From IMG/VR virus record IMGVR_UViG_3300047550_000638, positions 1 to 38,072 of that record: DNA of 38,072 nucleotides; one strand, given 5' to 3'. The stretch comes from a virus. Below are positions 3,083 through 34,350 of this stretch, piece by piece. Within the stretch, counting starts at the first letter, position 1. Each line of letters starts with the position of its first letter. The notes below the pieces were generated by a model. It was not told the origin of the DNA. It worked only from the letters and a program-made list of their open reading frames with translations, and searched no databases. The position numbers were made by a program, and so were the translations under genes.

Positions 3083-4736
3083 ATTCAAGACTCCATTCGC
3101 TGAACACATCTTCTTTCAGAAGTACGCATTTAGTAGTGCAGACAGTTGGGACAACCTAGCTTACCGGGTTGTAGATGACGTGTGTGGTACTCGTGGTGGT
3201 ACGGTACATGCGCTGATGTCGGAGTCAGATCGAAAGCAACTGACGCAGTACATCGCTGAGATGAAGTTCATTCCTGGTGGGCGTTACCTGTACTACGCAG
3301 GGCGTCCCATGAAAGCATACAACAACTGCTACCTGTTGAAGGGACAGGAAGACACCCGCGAGGAATGGGCTCGATTGGTACACGATGCCATGAGCTGTCT
3401 CTGTATGGGTGGAGGTATTGGAATTGATTACTCTGTTTTCCGTCCTAGTGGTCGTCTTCTGTCTCGGACTGGTGGTAAAGCTAGTGGGCCGCTCCCGCTC
3501 ATGTACGCCATCAACGAGATCGGACGCAACGTCATGCAGGGTGGGAGTCGGAGGTCAGCGATCTATGCGTCGCTCAACTGGCAGCACGAGGACACGCCAG
3601 CGTTCCTCACTGCTAAGGACTGGCACTCGAAGGAGATAGCAGGCACAGGGCAGACAGTGTGGGATGCAAAGAACGCAGACTTCAACTACCCCGCTCCGCT
3701 GGACATGACCAACATCTCCGTCAACTACGACGACGCATCATTGGTGGGTGGCCTGCAGCACAACCCAGTGTTTCTTAAGAACGTCGAGCAGGCGTTGAAG
3801 ACAGGGGAACCAGGGTTCAGCTTCAACTTCGGAGAGAAGCAGAATGAGACACTTAGGAATGCGTGCACAGAAGTTACTAGCAGCGATGATAGCGACGTGT
3901 GCAATCTTGGGTCTGTCAACCTTGGGGCTGTGGGTTCCATTGCTGAACTGGTTGATGTCGTCCGTCTTGCTAGCATGTTTCTGGTGTGCGGCACTGTACG
4001 CGCTGAGCTTCCTAATGAGAGAGTCAAAGCTGTACGGGAAAAGAACAGACGCATCGGACTAGGACTGATGGGCATCCACGAGTGGTTGCTTAAGAGGGGA
4101 CTACGGTATGAAGTCGGAACTGAACTCCACAGTTGGCTTGCTGTATATCGGGACGAAAGTAAACGCGCTGCTGACGAGCATTGTGATCGGCTATTCCTTA
4201 ATCATCCTGTGGCATACCGGGCTATTGCTCCCACTGGCAGCATTGGGATACTCGCTGCTACTACTACTGGTATCGAGCCTCTGTTTGCTGTGGCTTACAA
4301 GCGACGTTATCTCAAGGACGGAACGCGATGGCACTACGAGTATGTAGTGGATGCCACTGCTGACCACCTGATTAGGGAGTACGACATCAATCCTAGGGAC
4401 ATCGAGACGGCGAGGCAGCTAGCGGATGATCCAGAACGACGCATCAGATTCCAGGCGGACGTACAAGATTACGTTGACATGTCCATATCCAGCACAATCA
4501 ACCTTCCTGCTTGGGGAAGTGCAAGCAATAACGAATCCCGTGTTGCTGCGTTTGCTGACACACTCGCTGGTTACGCTCCTAGACTCCGGGGATTTACCTG
4601 TTACCCAGATGGAAGTCGAGGAGGTCAACCTCTCGTCGAAGTAGAGTACGAAGAAGCAGTGAAACACAAAGGTGTTGTTTTTGCCGAGAACGACATTTGT
4701 GAGATTAGTGGAAAGGGCGGGGTGTGCGGTAGCTGA
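3069..4736 (+). CDS. nrdJ: Class II (adenosylcobalamin-dependent) ribonucleotide reductase
   Basis: 555 residues from GTG 3069, which has AAGG about seven bases upstream. It reduces ribonucleotides to deoxyribonucleotides for phage DNA synthesis. Visible motifs: PGGRYLYYAGRP (about 69-80), NNC (C87, first redox cysteine), CMGGGIGIDYS (112-122), GGSRRSA, NISVNYDDA, the radical-site signature NACTE (C266, E268), DVCNLGSVNL (C278, second redox cysteine), APTGSIGILA (about 387-395) and a C-terminal C544...C553 pair able to relay reducing equivalents. No NrdB-type small subunit lies nearby, consistent with class II. It is somewhat shorter than typical NrdJ. HNH genes lie directly on both sides, an arrangement typical of homing around nrd genes. 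Confidence 0.88.
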   Translation: MQPNRFKTPFAEHIFFQKYAFSSADSWDNLAYRVVDDVCGTRGGTVHALMSESDRKQLTQYIAEMKFIPGGRYLYYAGRPMKAYNNCYLLKGQEDTREEWARLVHDAMSCLCMGGGIGIDYSVFRPSGRLLSRTGGKASGPLPLMYAINEIGRNVMQGGSRRSAIYASLNWQHEDTPAFLTAKDWHSKEIAGTGQTVWDAKNADFNYPAPLDMTNISVNYDDASLVGGLQHNPVFLKNVEQALKTGEPGFSFNFGEKQNETLRNACTEVTSSDDSDVCNLGSVNLGAVGSIAELVDVVRLASMFLVCGTVRAELPNERVKAVREKNRRIGLGLMGIHEWLLKRGLRYEVGTELHSWLAVYRDESKRAADEHCDRLFLNHPVAYRAIAPTGSIGILAATTTGIEPLFAVAYKRRYLKDGTRWHYEYVVDATADHLIREYDINPRDIETARQLADDPERRIRFQADVQDYVDMSISSTINLPAWGSASNNESRVAAFADTLAGYAPRLRGFTCYPDGSRGGQPLVEVEYEEAVKHKGVVFAENDICEISGKGGVCGS

Positions 4737-5074
4737 TGCCTGCTCATAAGATACCGATAGAGGAGCGCATCCGTCGTCACTCAAAAGTACAAGAAGACGG
4801 ATGTGTTAGATGGACAGGTTCCTGTCTTAAAGGTGGTCGTGGAAAGATGAAAGTCAACAAGCGATGGGTTCCAGCACCCCGCGTTGTGTGGGAGTTGCAC
4901 AACGGTCCTATACCGGAAGGGATGTGGGTACTACACACTTGTGATTACGCAGCGTGTGTCAATCCAACGCACCTTGAGTTGGGCACACATGCTATCAACC
5001 AGCAGCACAGATATAGACGATCAAAGAGGTTCAATCGAGACTTAGTAACTGGGAGATTTACCTGTGGCAGCTAA
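4736..5074 (+). CDS. HNH homing-type endonuclease (HNH_3-like)
   Basis: 112 residues; the ATG overlaps the nrdJ stop (TGATG). The core is VVWELHNGPIPEGMWVLHTC, followed by CVNPTHLELGTHAIN. This is the familiar phage HNH_3 pattern in which H of VLHTC is catalytic and the Cys/His residues bind zinc. The tail is basic (RYRRSKRFNRD), suited to DNA binding. Its position immediately after nrdJ suggests a free-standing homing endonuclease that targets the intronless version of this locus in rival phages. That is established behaviour for the family but only an inference here. Confidence 0.85.
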   Translation: MPAHKIPIEERIRRHSKVQEDGCVRWTGSCLKGGRGKMKVNKRWVPAPRVVWELHNGPIPEGMWVLHTCDYAACVNPTHLELGTHAINQQHRYRRSKRFNRDLVTGRFTCGS

Positions 5075-5249
5075 CGTGACGTGTATACCGAAGTTCAGGA
5101 TTGAGTCTGAAGATGATTTTTTGGAAGTGTACAAAGATGAAAGCATGATCTGCATCTACTCTAATGCGGGTGGTGTCACAGTGGAGCTGACAGTCGAGGA
5201 AGCAGAGGCTGTGTGTTCGTGCATCATGGCACTGGTCAGTGACGAGTAA
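5064..5249 (+). CDS. Small unknown protein
   Basis: 61 residues, GTG start at 5064 with GGGAG nine bases upstream. It overlaps both neighbours by 11 bases. The sequence suggests a compact alpha/beta fold: FRIESEDDFLEVYKDESMICIYS, then a helix (TVEEAEAVCSCIMALV). It has no known motif. It lies between an HNH nuclease and a dNTP hydrolase. Function unknown. Confidence 0.6.
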   Translation: MAANVTCIPKFRIESEDDFLEVYKDESMICIYSNAGGVTVELTVEEAEAVCSCIMALVSDE

Positions 5250-5709
5250 AGACACCTGGACTACGGGGATGAAGTTTGATGGAGGTAAACCCCGTATGGA
5301 CCTGGTTCCGTATGAGTCCGTAGCACAGATTGCCGAGGTCTTAGGGTTTGGTGCGCAGAAGTACGACGCGCACAACTGGCGTAAAGGGATAGCAATGTCT
5401 CGGCTCATTGCTGCTGCAGAGAGGCACATTGGTCAATTCAAAGATGGTGAGGACAGGGATCCCGAGAGTGGGCTGTCTCACCTAGCGCACGCAGGATGCT
5501 GTGTTCTGTTTGCGCTGTGGATGTACACCAATCGTCCCGATCTCGATGATCGGTGGAAACCAGAGGTGGCTAATGTACTGCGTGTTCAAGAACAAGCGAG
5601 CGACGTTGAAGGGTCATATGTTCGAGACGTACGAGCAGGCGCGGCAAGCGCTGCGGAAGCACATCCGAAAGTTGGTCCGTGCAGGGCGTATGCGCAAGAC
5701 GATGTTTGA
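5239..5709 (+). CDS. DUF5664 / MazZ-like dATP/dGTP diphosphohydrolase domain protein
   Basis: 156 residues, GTG start overlapping the previous gene. The first 100 residues have the DUF5664 signature: GMKFDGGKPRMDLVP, FGAQKYDAHNWRKG, RLIAAAERHIGQFKDGED and SHLAHAGCCVLFALWMY, an all-alpha MazG-type fold with acidic and histidine metal ligands. The cyanophage S-2L member of this family (MazZ) hydrolyses dATP and dGTP to their monophosphates. DUF5664 genes are also common in ordinary phages, so this alone does not indicate modified bases. With nrdJ nearby it fits dNTP-pool control. The last 45 residues overlap the next gene in another frame and look less conserved. Confidence 0.75.
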   Translation: MTSKDTWTTGMKFDGGKPRMDLVPYESVAQIAEVLGFGAQKYDAHNWRKGIAMSRLIAAAERHIGQFKDGEDRDPESGLSHLAHAGCCVLFALWMYTNRPDLDDRWKPEVANVLRVQEQASDVEGSYVRDVRAGAASAAEAHPKVGPCRAYAQDDV

Positions 5710-5806
5710 TGGCGGACTGGTCCCTGGTGGTGTTGCTCGGTGGGACGACGTTAGCCGTAACCCGGTGAACTACACCAACGCAGGCTACAGTATCCAGAAG
5801 GTGTAA
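5573..5806 (+). CDS. Small basic conserved phage protein, unknown
   Basis: 77 residues from ATG 5573 (AGAGG six bases upstream); ATG 5618, with AAGGG upstream, is a possible alternative. It contains GHMFETYEQARQALRKHIRKL, a recognisable small-phage-protein pattern, followed by a glycine-rich stretch ending in AGYSIQKV. From 5573 it shares 137 bases with the end of the dNTP hydrolase gene in a different frame, an unusually long overlap that argues for checking the start. Function unknown. Confidence 0.6.
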   Translation: MYCVFKNKRATLKGHMFETYEQARQALRKHIRKLVRAGRMRKTMFDGGLVPGGVARWDDVSRNPVNYTNAGYSIQKV

Positions 5807-5814
5807 GGGACAGC

Positions 5815-5835
5815 GGGATTAGGTGGGCTAATCCC
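5815..5835 (+). other. Stem-loop before a palindrome and start codon
   Basis: An eight-base-pair perfect stem (GGGATTAG / CTAATCCC) with a five-base loop GTGGG. No T-run follows, so it is not an obvious terminator. It lies four bases before the GTTCTTAGGAAC palindrome that abuts the ATG at 5851, so it could affect translation of that gene or mRNA processing. Confidence 0.6.
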
Positions 5836-5838
5836 CAG

Positions 5839-5850
5839 GTTCTTAGGAAC
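5839..5850. repeat. Palindrome GTTCTTAGGAAC, directly before an ATG
   Basis: Perfect match, abutting the start codon at 5851 with no spacer. Confidence 0.9.
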
Positions 5851-6057
5851 ATGAAAGAACGAGTGAGCTTCTTCATCACCAAGTCGGACAACGAGAGGTA
5901 CATTGTCCAGAAGAACGTTACAGATCCTGTCGATTGCCTCACCCGCGTTGACACCACAGTGGTACTTGACAACCTGTCGGACATTGGTATAGCGTTAGCT
6001 GAAGAGTATGAAGGAGATGCACATGCCTACCCGCAACAACTCAAACTCTCCATCTGA
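5851..6057 (+). CDS. Small unknown protein
   Basis: 68 residues. The ATG directly follows the palindrome GTTCTTAGGAAC with no gap, so the AGGA of the palindrome is the only Shine-Dalgarno-like sequence and sits unusually close. The N-terminal half is beta-like (RVSFFITKSDNERYIVQKNV) and the C-terminal part is acidic. No motif recognised. It overlaps the next gene by 35 bases. Confidence 0.6.
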   Translation: MKERVSFFITKSDNERYIVQKNVTDPVDCLTRVDTTVVLDNLSDIGIALAEEYEGDAHAYPQQLKLSI

Positions 6058-6217
6058 CCCACCCTTTGAGACACTAGGTGATCTCGTTGGGGAATTTGAG
6101 GAGTACGCAACCACTCCTCCTAACACACTGATCATCACTAGCATTGACAAGCTAGACGACATCATCAAAGAAAAAGCCCCCGAGGAGGGGGCTTCTTCTA
6201 AGTCAGTCGGTTCTTAG
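6023..6217 (+). CDS. Small acidic unknown protein, last plus-strand gene before the late block
   Basis: 64 residues from ATG 6023, chosen over upstream ATGs because GAAGGAG lies six bases before it. Low-complexity N-terminus (Asn, Ser, Pro), then acidic GDLVGEFEEYA and a short helix (SIDKLDDIIKEKAPEE). The end of the gene contains a terminator hairpin, and its TAG stop lies inside a GTTCTTAGGAAC palindrome. It overlaps the convergent lysozyme gene by 15 bases. Function unknown. Confidence 0.55.
   Translation: MPTRNNSNSPSDPPFETLGDLVGEFEEYATTPPNTLIITSIDKLDDIIKEKAPEEGASSKSVGS
6167..6194 (-). terminator. Rho-independent terminator of the minus-strand late block
   Basis: A perfect stem AAGCCCCC / GGGGGCTT with a five-base loop. 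On the minus strand it is followed by CTTTTTCTTT, a good U-run, and it lies 9 bases past the lysozyme stop. It probably ends late transcription. On the plus strand it is followed only by CTTCTTCT, so it may also work weakly for the converging early transcript. Confidence 0.8.
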
Positions 6218-29926: not shown

Positions 29927-30084
29927 TTGGCCTTCAGCTTTTGCGCAGTGTCAGTTTCCCAAATTCGTATCATCGTCCAGACGATAGAAAGAACGGCGGC
30001 GACGTGTGGAAGCCAGCCAACTAGGGTTGCAAGGATGGTAGTAATGCTCACTCCATCAAGTAGGTGTCGTAGAGAGCTGTGCAT
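29908..30084 (-). CDS. Small single-span holin-like membrane protein
   Basis: 58 residues from ATG 30084 in a TAATG junction with the spike gene, AGGA six bases before. One strong membrane segment (ITTILATLVGWLPHVAAVLSIVWTMI) is followed by RIWETDTAQKLKAKW, a charged tail. This matches small class II-like holins of podoviruses. It is directly upstream of the 3TM holin, so one may be the holin and the other an antiholin or pinholin. The start GTG 30099 is an alternative. Confidence 0.65.
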   Translation of the reverse strand: MHSSLRHLLDGVSITTILATLVGWLPHVAAVLSIVWTMIRIWETDTAQKLKAKWSRQS

Positions 30085-31655
30085 TACGTTCCTACCCACG
30101 CACCATTGATACGCCGGGCAAACGCACCTGTACCGCCACTTGTGAGCGGATTGGAACCGAATGTTCCGTTAGTGACATAAACCATAGAGCCGTTAGCCCA
30201 AGCGCCAAGATCGGCAGCTTGTAGTCCTGTGGACATGTGGTCGCGTAACACCGTAGAGGCGTTGAGCCCGTTCTTATATTTCTGCGCAGTGGTGCAACGA
30301 TTGAACACGTTGTCTGCCACCAAGACGTTCGTGGCGTTGCCTCCCGTCGTAATGCCGCCAGGGAGAGCGTTGCTGTACAAGTCGATGATGTTGCCGTGAA
30401 TGACAACACCGTTCCCGTCTAGCACCGAAATTGCATTGAGGTTGGCGTTGTAGGAGTGGTTGAAAACGTTGTCGGAGATGGAGATGTTGGACAAGTATTG
30501 AGCTGCCCCTGCGGCGATGTACACCGTAGGGTTGGTAGGGACTACAGCGAGATTGGAAAACTCGTTGCAGTTGATGTTGATGTTCCCGCCCGTCTGCCCC
30601 ACGGTGCCTTGCTGTACAAGGATGTGGGCGTTGATTTGCTCCTCGAAGGAGTTGGCGACAATTTGAAGAGTGCCAGTAACACCCTTCAGGTTCCACCAAA
30701 CACCATACTTCCCACTGAAGAACTTGTTACCGACAATCCACGTAGCAGCAGCCGACTCGAAGTAGACCCCTGCAAAACAGGCGGACGACATCTTGAACAC
30801 ACAACCTGTCACGTAGTTGTCCGCTTCGTCCACGTCGCTGGCGTTGGGGTAGTAGATGGCGTAGTTGATGGGCTCATCAAACACGCAGTCGCGCACCACC
30901 CAAAACCGTGCACGGATGAAACCAATGGCGTTGTAGCTGCCGTAGAAGTAGCAGTTTTCCACCCTCGTACGCATGTTCGCATCGGACCCGTTGCCCGAAA
31001 TTTTTATGTCGTACGCGCCTCCCGAGCGCACCACTGCTCCCCGGAAAGCCAGGTCACGGAACGCCACACCACTGTTCGTCGTGACGTTGAAGATGTCTGC
31101 CGTAGCACTGGTCGTGCTGATGGTGGCTACCGAACCAGAGCCGTGCCCTGCCCCAAACCCTTGCAGCACACACGGCTTGCTGATGGTGACGGTGCCGTTC
31201 ACCACATACTCAATACCCTTTTCAAAGAGGATGACACCTCCCGTAGCAGGTAGGGCGTCGTGTGCTTCCTGAATAGCCTGCGTCCAGTTGGACGCTCCCG
31301 GTACATCGTAATCGTTGACGCTAACTACAGAAGCTAGCTTCCCGGCAATGGTGCGTTGTACAGCCCCTGAGCCTGACGCTGTATAGGTTCCCGCCGCTGC
31401 GTCATACACGCCCAACGACGCGTTGGCGTACGCATCTAGTTGTCGTTTGGTGACAGGTTCACTGGCACTGTCTGCGTCAGGGAGATTGACTACCCGCTGG
31501 CTGTTCATGTCCAGCGTGGCAGTCATGGCGTTAGGCGCCGTACCGTCACGAGACACCAGCGAATCCAGAAAGTCCCTCACTCGCGTGAAGTTGGTGTTGA
31601 TGGTGTCTACCGCACTGTACCCACCAGACACGTTAAGCAAAGATATTTTGGACAT
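30084..31655 (-). CDS. Tailspike/tail fibre 2, beta-helix receptor-binding protein
   Basis: 523 residues from ATG 31655 (TAATG overlap with spike 1). Residues 1-100 (SGGYSAVDTINTNF, RVRDFLDSLVSRDG, LDMNSQRVVNLPDA, EPVTKRQLDAYAN) form an N-terminal adaptor shared with the upstream spike. The rest is a right-handed beta-helix pattern with repeated short strands and Asn/Gly turns (GVILFEKGIEYVVNGTVTIS; GVVIHGNIIDLYSN). It should bind or cut surface polysaccharide. No catalytic site can be assigned by eye. Confidence 0.75.
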   Translation of the reverse strand: MSKISLLNVSGGYSAVDTINTNFTRVRDFLDSLVSRDGTAPNAMTATLDMNSQRVVNLPDADSASEPVTKRQLDAYANASLGVYDAAAGTYTASGSGAVQRTIAGKLASVVSVNDYDVPGASNWTQAIQEAHDALPATGGVILFEKGIEYVVNGTVTISKPCVLQGFGAGHGSGSVATISTTSATADIFNVTTNSGVAFRDLAFRGAVVRSGGAYDIKISGNGSDANMRTRVENCYFYGSYNAIGFIRARFWVVRDCVFDEPINYAIYYPNASDVDEADNYVTGCVFKMSSACFAGVYFESAAATWIVGNKFFSGKYGVWWNLKGVTGTLQIVANSFEEQINAHILVQQGTVGQTGGNININCNEFSNLAVVPTNPTVYIAAGAAQYLSNISISDNVFNHSYNANLNAISVLDGNGVVIHGNIIDLYSNALPGGITTGGNATNVLVADNVFNRCTTAQKYKNGLNASTVLRDHMSTGLQAADLGAWANGSMVYVTNGTFGSNPLTSGGTGAFARRINGAWVGT

Positions 31656-33250
31656 TACGCAGCCACCGTGGCCCCAGTATCGACAGCACGCCAAGCCGTA
31701 CCGTCGCTGAACACCAGCACTCCTGTGCCAGCACCAGCTCCTTCTCCGTTCTTCCGCCCGTTCGTAGCGAAGTAGGTGTCCCCTGCCAGATGCACTGCAG
31801 GGAGAGCAGCCACCGTACTGGTAGGCAGGCGCACTCGCACACCTGCCGTCAGTCGAGTGGCGTCCATTGCCCAGACAGCCACGCTGTTGATGAAGTCGGT
31901 CTTGGTGTTGGTGGATCGCGTGTACGCCGTGTAGTCGTTTGCGTCCCACACCAGCAACGGATCGGTGCCCGACAGCCCGAAGTAGGCGTTGCTGTCCAGC
32001 GCCACACGTGGCGTCTTGCACCACACATTGCCCGTGGTTTCACCCAACGTGTTGCTGGACAGGTCCGTCGCTCCACCAAACAGCACCACTCCACCCAGTG
32101 CTTCGATGCCGTAGCGGGTGTTGCCCCGACTCTTGCCACCTAGCACACGCACTTCGTAGCTGTTGATGGTGGCCCCCACTCGGATGCCACTGCCCGTGGC
32201 TCCCAAGACGTAGGGGGTGGCGATGTCGTAGTCGGAGCCTGTGGTGATGTCAATCGCGTGCGTACCGCAGTAGTCGATTTCGACGTGCTTAAACTTGCCA
32301 ATGGCAGGTACTGTGCCGCCACTCGTGTTGCGGACAATGACGCCGTAGCCGTTGGCTGCAGAGACAGACGCTCCACAGACAATGCCCAATTTCTGAGCCG
32401 TCAGGCTGTGGCAGTTGCCATCCCAGTCCAGCCCATACTGCCCCGCACCAACACTGAAGACAGCTTCACCGATGTTGAGGATGTCAGACCGCACTACCGT
32501 CGTGCCGTACCAGGTGATGCCGTAGCCACGACACGCCCCATACATCCACTCAATGGTGGTGTGGTTGGCTCCGGTGACATACACCCCGTTGAGCACATCC
32601 TTGGCGTAGAGACGAATGCGAGCGCGATGGGCAGTGTCCACCTTGACAGCCACTCCCGTGTGAGCAGCCGAGTCGACGACAACATCCACCACAGCACCCA
32701 GACAACCTCCCGTCACTACAACACCACAGTTGCCCGAGGGTTTGAGGACACCCCCACCCATCAGCCATTGGTAGTTGGTGGTGATGGAGAGGTTGGAGTT
32801 GAAGAGGTAGGTGCGACCAGGGGTGAGGAGGACACGCTTGCCTGTAGCTAGCGCGTTAGTGAGAGCGGTGGTGTCATTAGCGGTGCCGTCCCCCACTGCA
32901 CCGAAGTCTTCAGGGCTCACCCATTCCCCGAGCTTAGCTGACATGGTGCGACTGACAGCTCCTGTGCCAGAGGCTGTGTAGGTGCCAGCAGAAGCGTTGA
33001 AGCTAGCTAGGGAGGTGGTTGCATATGCATCGAGCTGTCGCTTAGTGACAGGCTCTCCCCCATTCTCCGCATCCTGTAGGTTGATGATGCGGTGGCTGTT
33101 CATATCCAGATCAGATGCCATGTAGTTGGGACTAACACCGTCCCGCGACACAACACTGTCTAGGAAATCAACGATTGCCTGGAAGTTGGCATTGATTGTG
33201 GAGGTAGCACCATATCCTCCTGTAATGGAGGAGAGGGATAGCTTAGACAT
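31655..33250 (-). CDS. Tailspike 1, pectate-lyase-like beta-helix
   Basis: 531 residues from ATG 33250, which lies five bases after a palindrome. The N-terminal adaptor (SITGGYGATSTINANF, IVDFLDSVVSRDG, LDMNSHRIINLQDA, EPVTKRQLDAYA) matches that of the downstream spike. Then comes VSPEDFGAVGDGTANDTTALTNAL, the signature of pectate-lyase-like tailspikes, and a long beta-helix. It would recognise or depolymerise capsule or LPS. It is the first gene of the late block. Confidence 0.82.
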   Translation of the reverse strand: MSKLSLSSITGGYGATSTINANFQAIVDFLDSVVSRDGVSPNYMASDLDMNSHRIINLQDAENGGEPVTKRQLDAYATTSLASFNASAGTYTASGTGAVSRTMSAKLGEWVSPEDFGAVGDGTANDTTALTNALATGKRVLLTPGRTYLFNSNLSITTNYQWLMGGGVLKPSGNCGVVVTGGCLGAVVDVVVDSAAHTGVAVKVDTAHRARIRLYAKDVLNGVYVTGANHTTIEWMYGACRGYGITWYGTTVVRSDILNIGEAVFSVGAGQYGLDWDGNCHSLTAQKLGIVCGASVSAANGYGVIVRNTSGGTVPAIGKFKHVEIDYCGTHAIDITTGSDYDIATPYVLGATGSGIRVGATINSYEVRVLGGKSRGNTRYGIEALGGVVLFGGATDLSSNTLGETTGNVWCKTPRVALDSNAYFGLSGTDPLLVWDANDYTAYTRSTNTKTDFINSVAVWAMDATRLTAGVRVRLPTSTVAALPAVHLAGDTYFATNGRKNGEGAGAGTGVLVFSDGTAWRAVDTGATVAA

Positions 33251-33278: not shown

Positions 33279-33302
33279 GCCCCCTCCCTAGGGGTCGGGG
33301 GC
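33279..33302 (-). other. Late-mRNA leader hairpin
   Basis: GCCCCC and GGGGGC pair, with an inner CCC/GGG, about 30 bases upstream of the tailspike 1 start and downstream of the late promoter-like element. There is no T-run, so it is a leader structure rather than a terminator; it may protect the 5' end of late mRNA. Confidence 0.5.
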
Positions 33303-33344
33303 ATATAGGTGTGTATAGACCCCGGAGGGCTTATGCCCGTATTC

Positions 33345-33371
33345 GACAACAAAACTTAAGAAAAGTTCCCT
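33345..33371 (-). promoter_or_regulatory. Late promoter-like element A, before the tailspike-led block
   Basis: Minus strand: AGGGAACTTTT, six variable bases, TTTTGTTGTC, 23/27 identical to element B at 22285-22311. It holds GGAACTT, 15 bases and GTCGAA, close to the sigma-E consensus. Expected transcription start is about 33335, giving a leader near 85 bases to the spike 1 ATG. It lies back to back with a plus-strand promoter. Confidence 0.7.
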
Positions 33372-33377
33372 TGACTA

Positions 33378-33406
33378 TTGACAATTTTTGCAAATGGGAA
33401 TAATTT
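33378..33406 (+). promoter_or_regulatory. Sigma70-like promoter directed into the non-coding region
   Basis: TTGACA at 33378-33383 is a perfect -35. A -10 is either TAATTT after 17 bases or AATAAT after 15 in the sequence GAATAATTTTT. The area is A/T-rich against a GC-richer background. It would drive the candidate non-coding RNA and possibly the early genes by read-through. Confidence 0.6.
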
Positions 33407-33409
33407 TTA

Positions 33410-34092
33410 GGGGCTTCTGAATTTTAGTTAGCGATTTGTAAGGGGCAAGTGCACTCAGAAAGACGGACCCCGGCCCCCTGCCTACGGGTGCCTCGCGCAT
33501 GACGCGCAGCCCTGCGGGCGCAGAATGCAGGCGCATGTAACACGTGATCGCACTGCCGAGCTGGCGAGCAATCACGTGCGTAACAGAAGTACAACAACAA
33601 CAACAAGAGTACTGTAATGGTTCTTAGAAACATTCCTTTACTACCACTCCGGGCAGTAGTTGTTCTACTACTAGTAGCTGTTTGTTTATACAGCACATTC
33701 TGTGCCAGTCCCGCCGCAGCTTCGCTGCGATGTCATTCCCCGCCTTGTCAGTAGCGTAGCTACTGCCTCAGTAGTCCTGCCAGATGGGTTAGCAGCCCGC
33801 CGATAGCTGCCTTCGGCAAGGGTTGTGCCAGCCTTTTTCAGCAGTGCTTTAGCACTGCTGTGGGCCTTGTCGTGCCGTCGATTGGCACCGATGTGGCATG
33901 GCAATAGCAAAGCTATTGCTACACACGCGGTTCTAACAACATCTATGACAGAGAAGACCGAAGGTCTGAACTGGCATTGATGTTGTGAACACAGCAATCA
34001 ATAAAGCTCTGCACTCAAAAAGGATCTACACCCAAACAACTCTAAAAGCATAAAAACGCCTCCCAACAAGTTGTGAGGAAGGCGTTTTTATA
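33410..34092 (+). ncRNA. Candidate large structured non-coding RNA (about 680 nt)
   Basis: No convincing ORF lies here. A sigma70-like promoter precedes it and a strong terminator closes it. It is filled with short perfect stem-loops: CACGTGAT/ATCACGTG (33541-33578), GCACA-TTC-TGTGC (33693-33705), CGCAGC-TTC-GCTGCG (33715-33729), CAGTAGC-GTA-GCTACTG (33749-33765), CAGCAGTGC-TTTA-GCACTGCTG (33839-33860), GTGCC/GGCAC (33872-33888), GCAATAGC-AAA-GCTATTGC (33901-33919) and ACAACATC/GATGTTGT (33936-33987) enclosing AGACC-GAA-GGTCT. TGCACTCA at 33450 and again near 34010 can pair with TGAGTGCA at 34102-34109, closing the ends. Phages are known to carry large ornate RNAs (GOLLD, ROOL), but I see no specific match. 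An origin of replication is another possibility. Confidence 0.5.
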
Positions 34093-34114
34093 AGAGTTGT
34101 TTGAGTGCAGATCC
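34008..34114 (+). repeat. Long imperfect inverted repeat with alternative pairing
   Basis: Arms 34022-34043 and 34093-34114 are complementary at 20 of 22 positions and flank the terminator stem. A second left arm, TCTGCACTCAAA (34008-34019), pairs perfectly with TTTGAGTGCAGA (34100-34111), so two mutually exclusive folds share one right arm. Confidence 0.75.
34050..34091 (+). terminator. Strong rho-independent (bidirectional) terminator
   Basis: ATAAAAACGCCT and AGGCGTTTTTAT form a perfect 12-bp stem with an 18-base loop; the T-run is part of the stem, so it can work on either strand. No minus-strand gene lies to its right, so its main job is probably to end the transcript from about 33410. 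Confidence 0.85.
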
Positions 34115-34131
34115 CAAAATGGAGCGATGCG

Positions 34132-34350
34132 ATGGCAATGGTCATGAACTATGCAGGGTTCGCCGATCTCACGGCGAAGCCGCTCAGCGGTAAGGCGAAG
34201 GCTCAGCGCAACAACAACTGGGCCTGGCGTCCTCCGAAGGAGCAGCCCAAGCGTAAGACGGGCAGTGGCTTCGCCAAGGACAGACTCGATGCCCTGTGTG
34301 GCGCTGTCGCTCCGAAGGAGCGGTATGCCAAGCGGTGGGCAGCGAAGTAG
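34132..34350 (+). CDS. Small very basic protein, unknown
   Basis: 72 residues from ATG 34132, chosen because GGAG lies seven bases upstream. After a hydrophobic start (AMVMNYAGFADL) it is rich in Lys, Arg, Pro and Trp (NNNWAWRPPKEQPKRK; KERYAKRW). It could bind nucleic acid. The DNA includes two GAA-loop hairpins (CTCC-GAA-GGAG; CGCTCC-GAA-GGAGCG), so RNA structure may be selected here as well. Unrecognised. Confidence 0.45.
   Translation: MAMVMNYAGFADLTAKPLSGKAKAQRNNNWAWRPPKEQPKRKTGSGFAKDRLDALCGAVAPKERYAKRWAAK

Follow-up and report, generated by a model that had tools for sequence, protein, structure and literature searches.

The closest described counterparts of the locus analysed here are the genome ends of other Zobellviridae. 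In ICBM1, whose direct terminal repeats (DTRs) were read from PacBio data (PMC6775973), the repeats are 172 bp long and sit in the gap between the tail-fibre gene and the early genes; annotated DTRs occupy the same gap in ICBM2 (159 bp), VpV262 (138 bp), RIO-1 (121 bp), and Klyazma (711 bp). The authors of the ICBM1 study described a G+C-rich 5' end that is conserved among cobaviral repeats (PMC6775973). When the mapped ends of ICBM1, ICBM2, VpV262, and RIO-1 are aligned, they display a common motif in which the cut falls 19–21 nt after TTAG or its equivalent and is followed by C-runs; the Klyazma motif is located ~85 nt outside the repeat as mapped. Two further systems should be kept in mind, namely the early promoters of phage N4, DNA hairpins whose extrusion needs a C-G closed loop with a 5' G and a 3' A (PMC4496689), and the large phage RNAs GOLLD and ROOL, which are often encoded near tRNA islands (PMC12286853).

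Here, the window is the whole stretch of DNA analysed, 38,072 nucleotides of one linear virus record. It belongs to a Zobellviridae podophage, with SIO1, ICBM1, CRP-4, CRP-5, ICP2, and Klyazma, among others, as relatives by capsid and terminase. Its genes form two arms, one on the minus strand from 33250 down to ~6700 and one on the plus strand from ~34130 onward, which is the layout of ICBM1, and the region under study (Table 1) is the divergent gap between the tail-fibre gene and the early genes. The ends of the record lie elsewhere than at the 33446–33449 junction. Part of the early arm seems to be missing from the window, because the homologues of its two edge genes are 10 kb apart in the related contig G002. 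A DNA-level search of a phage collection with the window gave no match, and neither did protein family searches with the small early ORFs of 45 and 72 aa. Two minus-strand genes (30084–31700 and 31655–33250) are neighbours with a similar N-terminal tail-fibre domain, which suggests that this anchor part was duplicated.

Table 1. Features in and around the gap between the tail-fibre gene and the early genes (window positions; a dot marks features without a strand)
Feature	Position	Strand	Basis or remark
Tail-fibre gene, end of late arm	31655–33250	-	gene list and family match
Conserved packaging-end motif: AT-rich inverted-repeat-like core, TTAG, TGCA, then C-runs	33417–33479	+	profile match
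Predicted terminase cut, left end of DTR	33446–33449	.	predicted, 19–21 nt past TTAG or equivalent
Possible first early gene, 45 aa, hydrophobic stretch	33617–33754	+	counterparts in G002 and L134 with similar start context
Array of short perfect hairpins	33655–33967	.	six members: 33655–33672, 33715–33729, 33749–33765, 33839–33860, 33901–33919, 33955–33967
Core closed by 9-bp helix 33822–33830/33894–33902 with three G-U pairs	33822–33902	+	common to G002 and L134
Closed hairpin domain, all Watson-Crick	33936–33986	.	G002 and L134 have a closed domain here too, with another sequence
Long inverted repeat with the 12-bp stem of a bidirectional terminator (34050–34091)	34008–34114	.	hairpin kept in two relatives, terminator not
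Small basic ORF, 72 aa, early arm	34132–34350	+	ORF list

An end-site profile was built from 15 other Zobellviridae, leaving out the window and its two nearest relatives at this junction (G002 and L134). It has a single match in the 38-kb window (E=1.1e-4), so that the window carries in its tail-fibre/early gap the conserved motif, followed by C-runs, that marks the DTR ends of ICBM1, ICBM2, VpV262, RIO-1, and Klyazma. Run over the full contig set, a profile of 18 sites found some 20 junctions. One 43.8-kb contig (G021) stops ~15 nt past the cut predicted for it and, judged against a contig that crosses the junction (G022), picks up again after a further 166 nt, a break that lends weak support to a genome end there. 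By analogy with the mapped phages, terminase would cut within the motif to give the left end of the DTR; the early arm would begin at the cut and the late arm would finish there. We infer both the exact cut and the length that a repeat would have. The right edge of the repeat was sought but could not be placed: only VpV262 has an inverted copy of its left end at the right end, repeats of TGCACTC occur in the window and G002 and are absent from L134, and both candidates were dropped. Two strict patterns matched G002 alone, and a looser end pattern matched G002 and L134 alone.

To the right of the motif lies a stretch that a preliminary description had read as a candidate structured non-coding RNA of about 680 nt with at least nine perfect hairpins. 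A non-random structured stretch is indeed present. Counted more strictly (stem of at least 5, loop of 3–6), there are seven perfect hairpins in the 676 nt of 33440–34115, against 2.4 +/- 1.4 in shuffled sequence, and 1 of 100 shuffles reached that number; for hairpins with triloops, the figures are 5 against 0.6, a count attained by none of the 100. The density of hairpins with stems of at least 6 and loops of 3–4 rises from 0/kb over the 1 kb preceding the end motif to 8/kb in the next 500 bp, the genome as a whole having 1.1/kb. The hairpins are real and exceed chance. The folding z-score of the region was -4.6 in one computation and -6.9 (plus strand) and -8.3 (minus strand) in another. By part, it was 0 for 33450–33640, -4.1 for 33640–34000, and -9.9 for 33995–34115; structure is confined to 33640–34115, and the first part folds no better than chance. 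The closed domain proposed at about 33936–33987 was recovered. An 8-base pairing of the two ends of the supposed RNA does exist on paper, between TGCACTCA (33450–33457) and TGAGTGCA (34102–34109), but its 3' strand lies beyond the end given for that RNA and has a longer partner nearby (34008–34019, 12/12 paired).

Related phages carry the hairpin array in the corresponding position. A comparable step in hairpin density at the end motif was seen in L134 (8), in the AT-rich group L113/L109/L111 (6–12), and in G019 (16–20). In G018, the extreme case, the 2.1 kb that start at the end motif hold 41 perfect hairpins with a median spacing of 40 bp; 34 have triloops, and 31 lie inside plus-strand ORFs. 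This array (G018:C1:26991-28945; L163, L095) consists mostly of C-G closed triloops and runs through tightly packed small ORFs. The arrays of G019 and G025 resemble that of G018, and within an array the stems are unlike one another from hairpin to hairpin. No array was found in SIO1, ICBM1, and ICP2, which do possess the end motif; the hairpins are thus not needed for packaging in general, and the array is lineage-specific. The end of ICBM1 differs from that of the window in this respect. Our literature search turned up no published account of arrays like these in Zobellviridae. As a genome end, then, the locus is of a known kind; an array anchored at that end, with loops prone to extrusion, appears to be undescribed.

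The loops of these hairpins are biased. In six phages pooled, whose arrays were picked by hairpin density and not by loop type, triloops make up 75% of array hairpins (background, 50%) and C-G closure 80% (background, 34%). Among C-G closed triloops, GNA or its complement accounts for 39/71 (55%) in the arrays and 7/66 (11%) in the background (P=2.6e-8), statistics that rest mainly on G018, G019, and G025, with few hairpins added by the window. In the window itself, three of the four C-G closed triloops have a 5' G and a 3' A on one strand, as the N4-type loop does. By comparison with N4, loops of this kind should favour hairpin formation in DNA. The window also folds about equally well on both strands, and such strand symmetry points to DNA. 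The likeness to the hairpin promoters of the N4 virion RNA polymerase extends to the short stem and the C-G closed three-base loop of the GNA class. Whereas N4 has three conserved promoters, however, the arrays here consist of dozens of unlike stems, and a counterpart of the N4 polymerase was not recognised in the window: its 2012-aa protein matches a family of internal virion proteins, and a search among its largest proteins returned internal virion and lytic tail families only, part of the early arm lying outside the window.

We consider it probable that the region is a Zobellviridae genome end, that is, a concatemer junction, followed by an array of hairpins that most likely act as DNA. Homology underlies the position and the end motif, and computation underlies the array density, loop bias, and strand symmetry. 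The array runs rightwards from the predicted end with C-G closed triloops, mostly GNA on either strand, and its hairpins would work as cruciforms or single-strand hairpins. They would do so at an end that has to be linked to others in concatemers and cut again, and that is the first part to be transcribed.

Ranked after this reading, and unlikely in our view, is a structured RNA of the plus strand, either a free non-coding RNA or a long early leader, that would span ~33690–34115 independently of the packaging end and finish at the hairpin 34050–34091. It draws on a fold shared by the window, G002, and L134. Anchor sequences are common to the three, and folding each separately yields a core that a GTGCC/GGCAT helix closes; this helix contains G-U pairs (three in the window, one kept in all), while the hairpins beside the core are replaced by other paired sequence. 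For G002 and L134, folding also slightly favours the plus strand, but in the window the minus strand folds just as well, and among the pairs just outside the stems, G-T (20) and A-C (22) are equally frequent. G-U pairs are nearly lacking from both the closed domain and the 3' hairpin. A helix test for one-strandedness, with three relatives only, gave G-U in the core and symmetry elsewhere; the structural alignment of the three sequences is poor, and a search of viral and bacterial contigs with the core pattern returned the relatives plus unrelated matches. In G002, the spacing of TGGCAT-N5-TTGC is also like that of a sigma-54 promoter, but this is absent from the window.

The transcription signals claimed for such an RNA fared unevenly. 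A TTGACA is present at 33378–33383, just 15 nt from an AATAAT and upstream of the predicted genome end. A promoter scan of the region found no more promoter-like sites than in shuffles, and it passed over this pair because it asks for a spacing of 16–18 nt. The terminator does contain a perfect 12-bp inverted repeat, but in the two closest relatives the corresponding site showed neither the promoter nor the U-tract terminator. Rfam searches at gathering scores and at E<=5 returned nothing relevant, and the weak matches (microRNA, leader, sRNA) all cover the inverted repeat 34008–34126 in minus-strand orientation. The stretch is ORF-poor, although the possible 45-aa ORF had been missed. Between the window and G002, this ORF has 28 differences at third codon positions and 20 and 18 at first and second positions, figures that are suggestive only, since the protein alignment served to align the codons; it may be the first early gene.

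More doubtful still is the proposal that the hairpins are a mutational by-product, in which template switching during replication or end processing perfects imperfect inverted repeats without any function. In its favour, the stems are perfect yet unlike one another, and the array starts at the end motif, ignores reading frames, and is absent in several relatives. The preference for GNA-type loops and C-G closure and the regular 40-bp spacing are not obviously explained in this way. That the region belongs with the large ornate phage RNAs GOLLD and ROOL is scarcely credible, for the likeness stops at size and phage context: neither covariance model matched at gathering scores or appeared at E<=5 in 33300–34200, a tRNA search of the window found none (the tRNA neighbourhood being frequent for these RNAs, not strict), strand bias is lacking, the promoter and terminator are unconserved, and in relatives the hairpins run through ORFs and their loops favour DNA.

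Other repeats were encountered in these genomes. The palindrome GTTCYTARGAAC occurs at 19 exact sites across the window, about every 2 kb, both within and between genes (e.g., 2028, 5839, 11343, 21321, 33255, 34422, and 37465), and its spacing is more even than chance (CV 0.58 vs 0.93, P=0.01). It has 31 sites in G002, 22 in G003, and 27 in G021, and most of the distant relatives have none; it is likely a binding site for a phage or host DNA-binding protein. In L113 (reverse strand, record 4601–6200), L111, and L117, a phrase like GTAAGTTTCGTGTAAGGTTNNTGTGTATAATG occurs up to four times downstream of the end region, and these repeats are probably strong early promoters.

For annotation, the end profile gives a way to locate the genome-end region of Zobellviridae without read data, and at this locus a candidate RNA class is replaced by a packaging-end annotation that can be tested. 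The analysis also exposes, in uncultured phages, end-anchored arrays of DNA-type hairpins whose loops follow the N4-promoter rule. Tentatively, and with less confidence than we place in the genome end and its array, we suggest that selection maintains, in several lineages of Zobellviridae, an array of regularly spaced DNA mini-hairpins whose loops are prone to extrusion. It would begin at the packaging end, continue into the early genes whatever the reading frame, and may be an undescribed DNA-structure element that serves entry, early transcription, or the processing of ends. Should the hairpins extrude in cells, they would form a natural array of functional structured DNA of an unusual kind.
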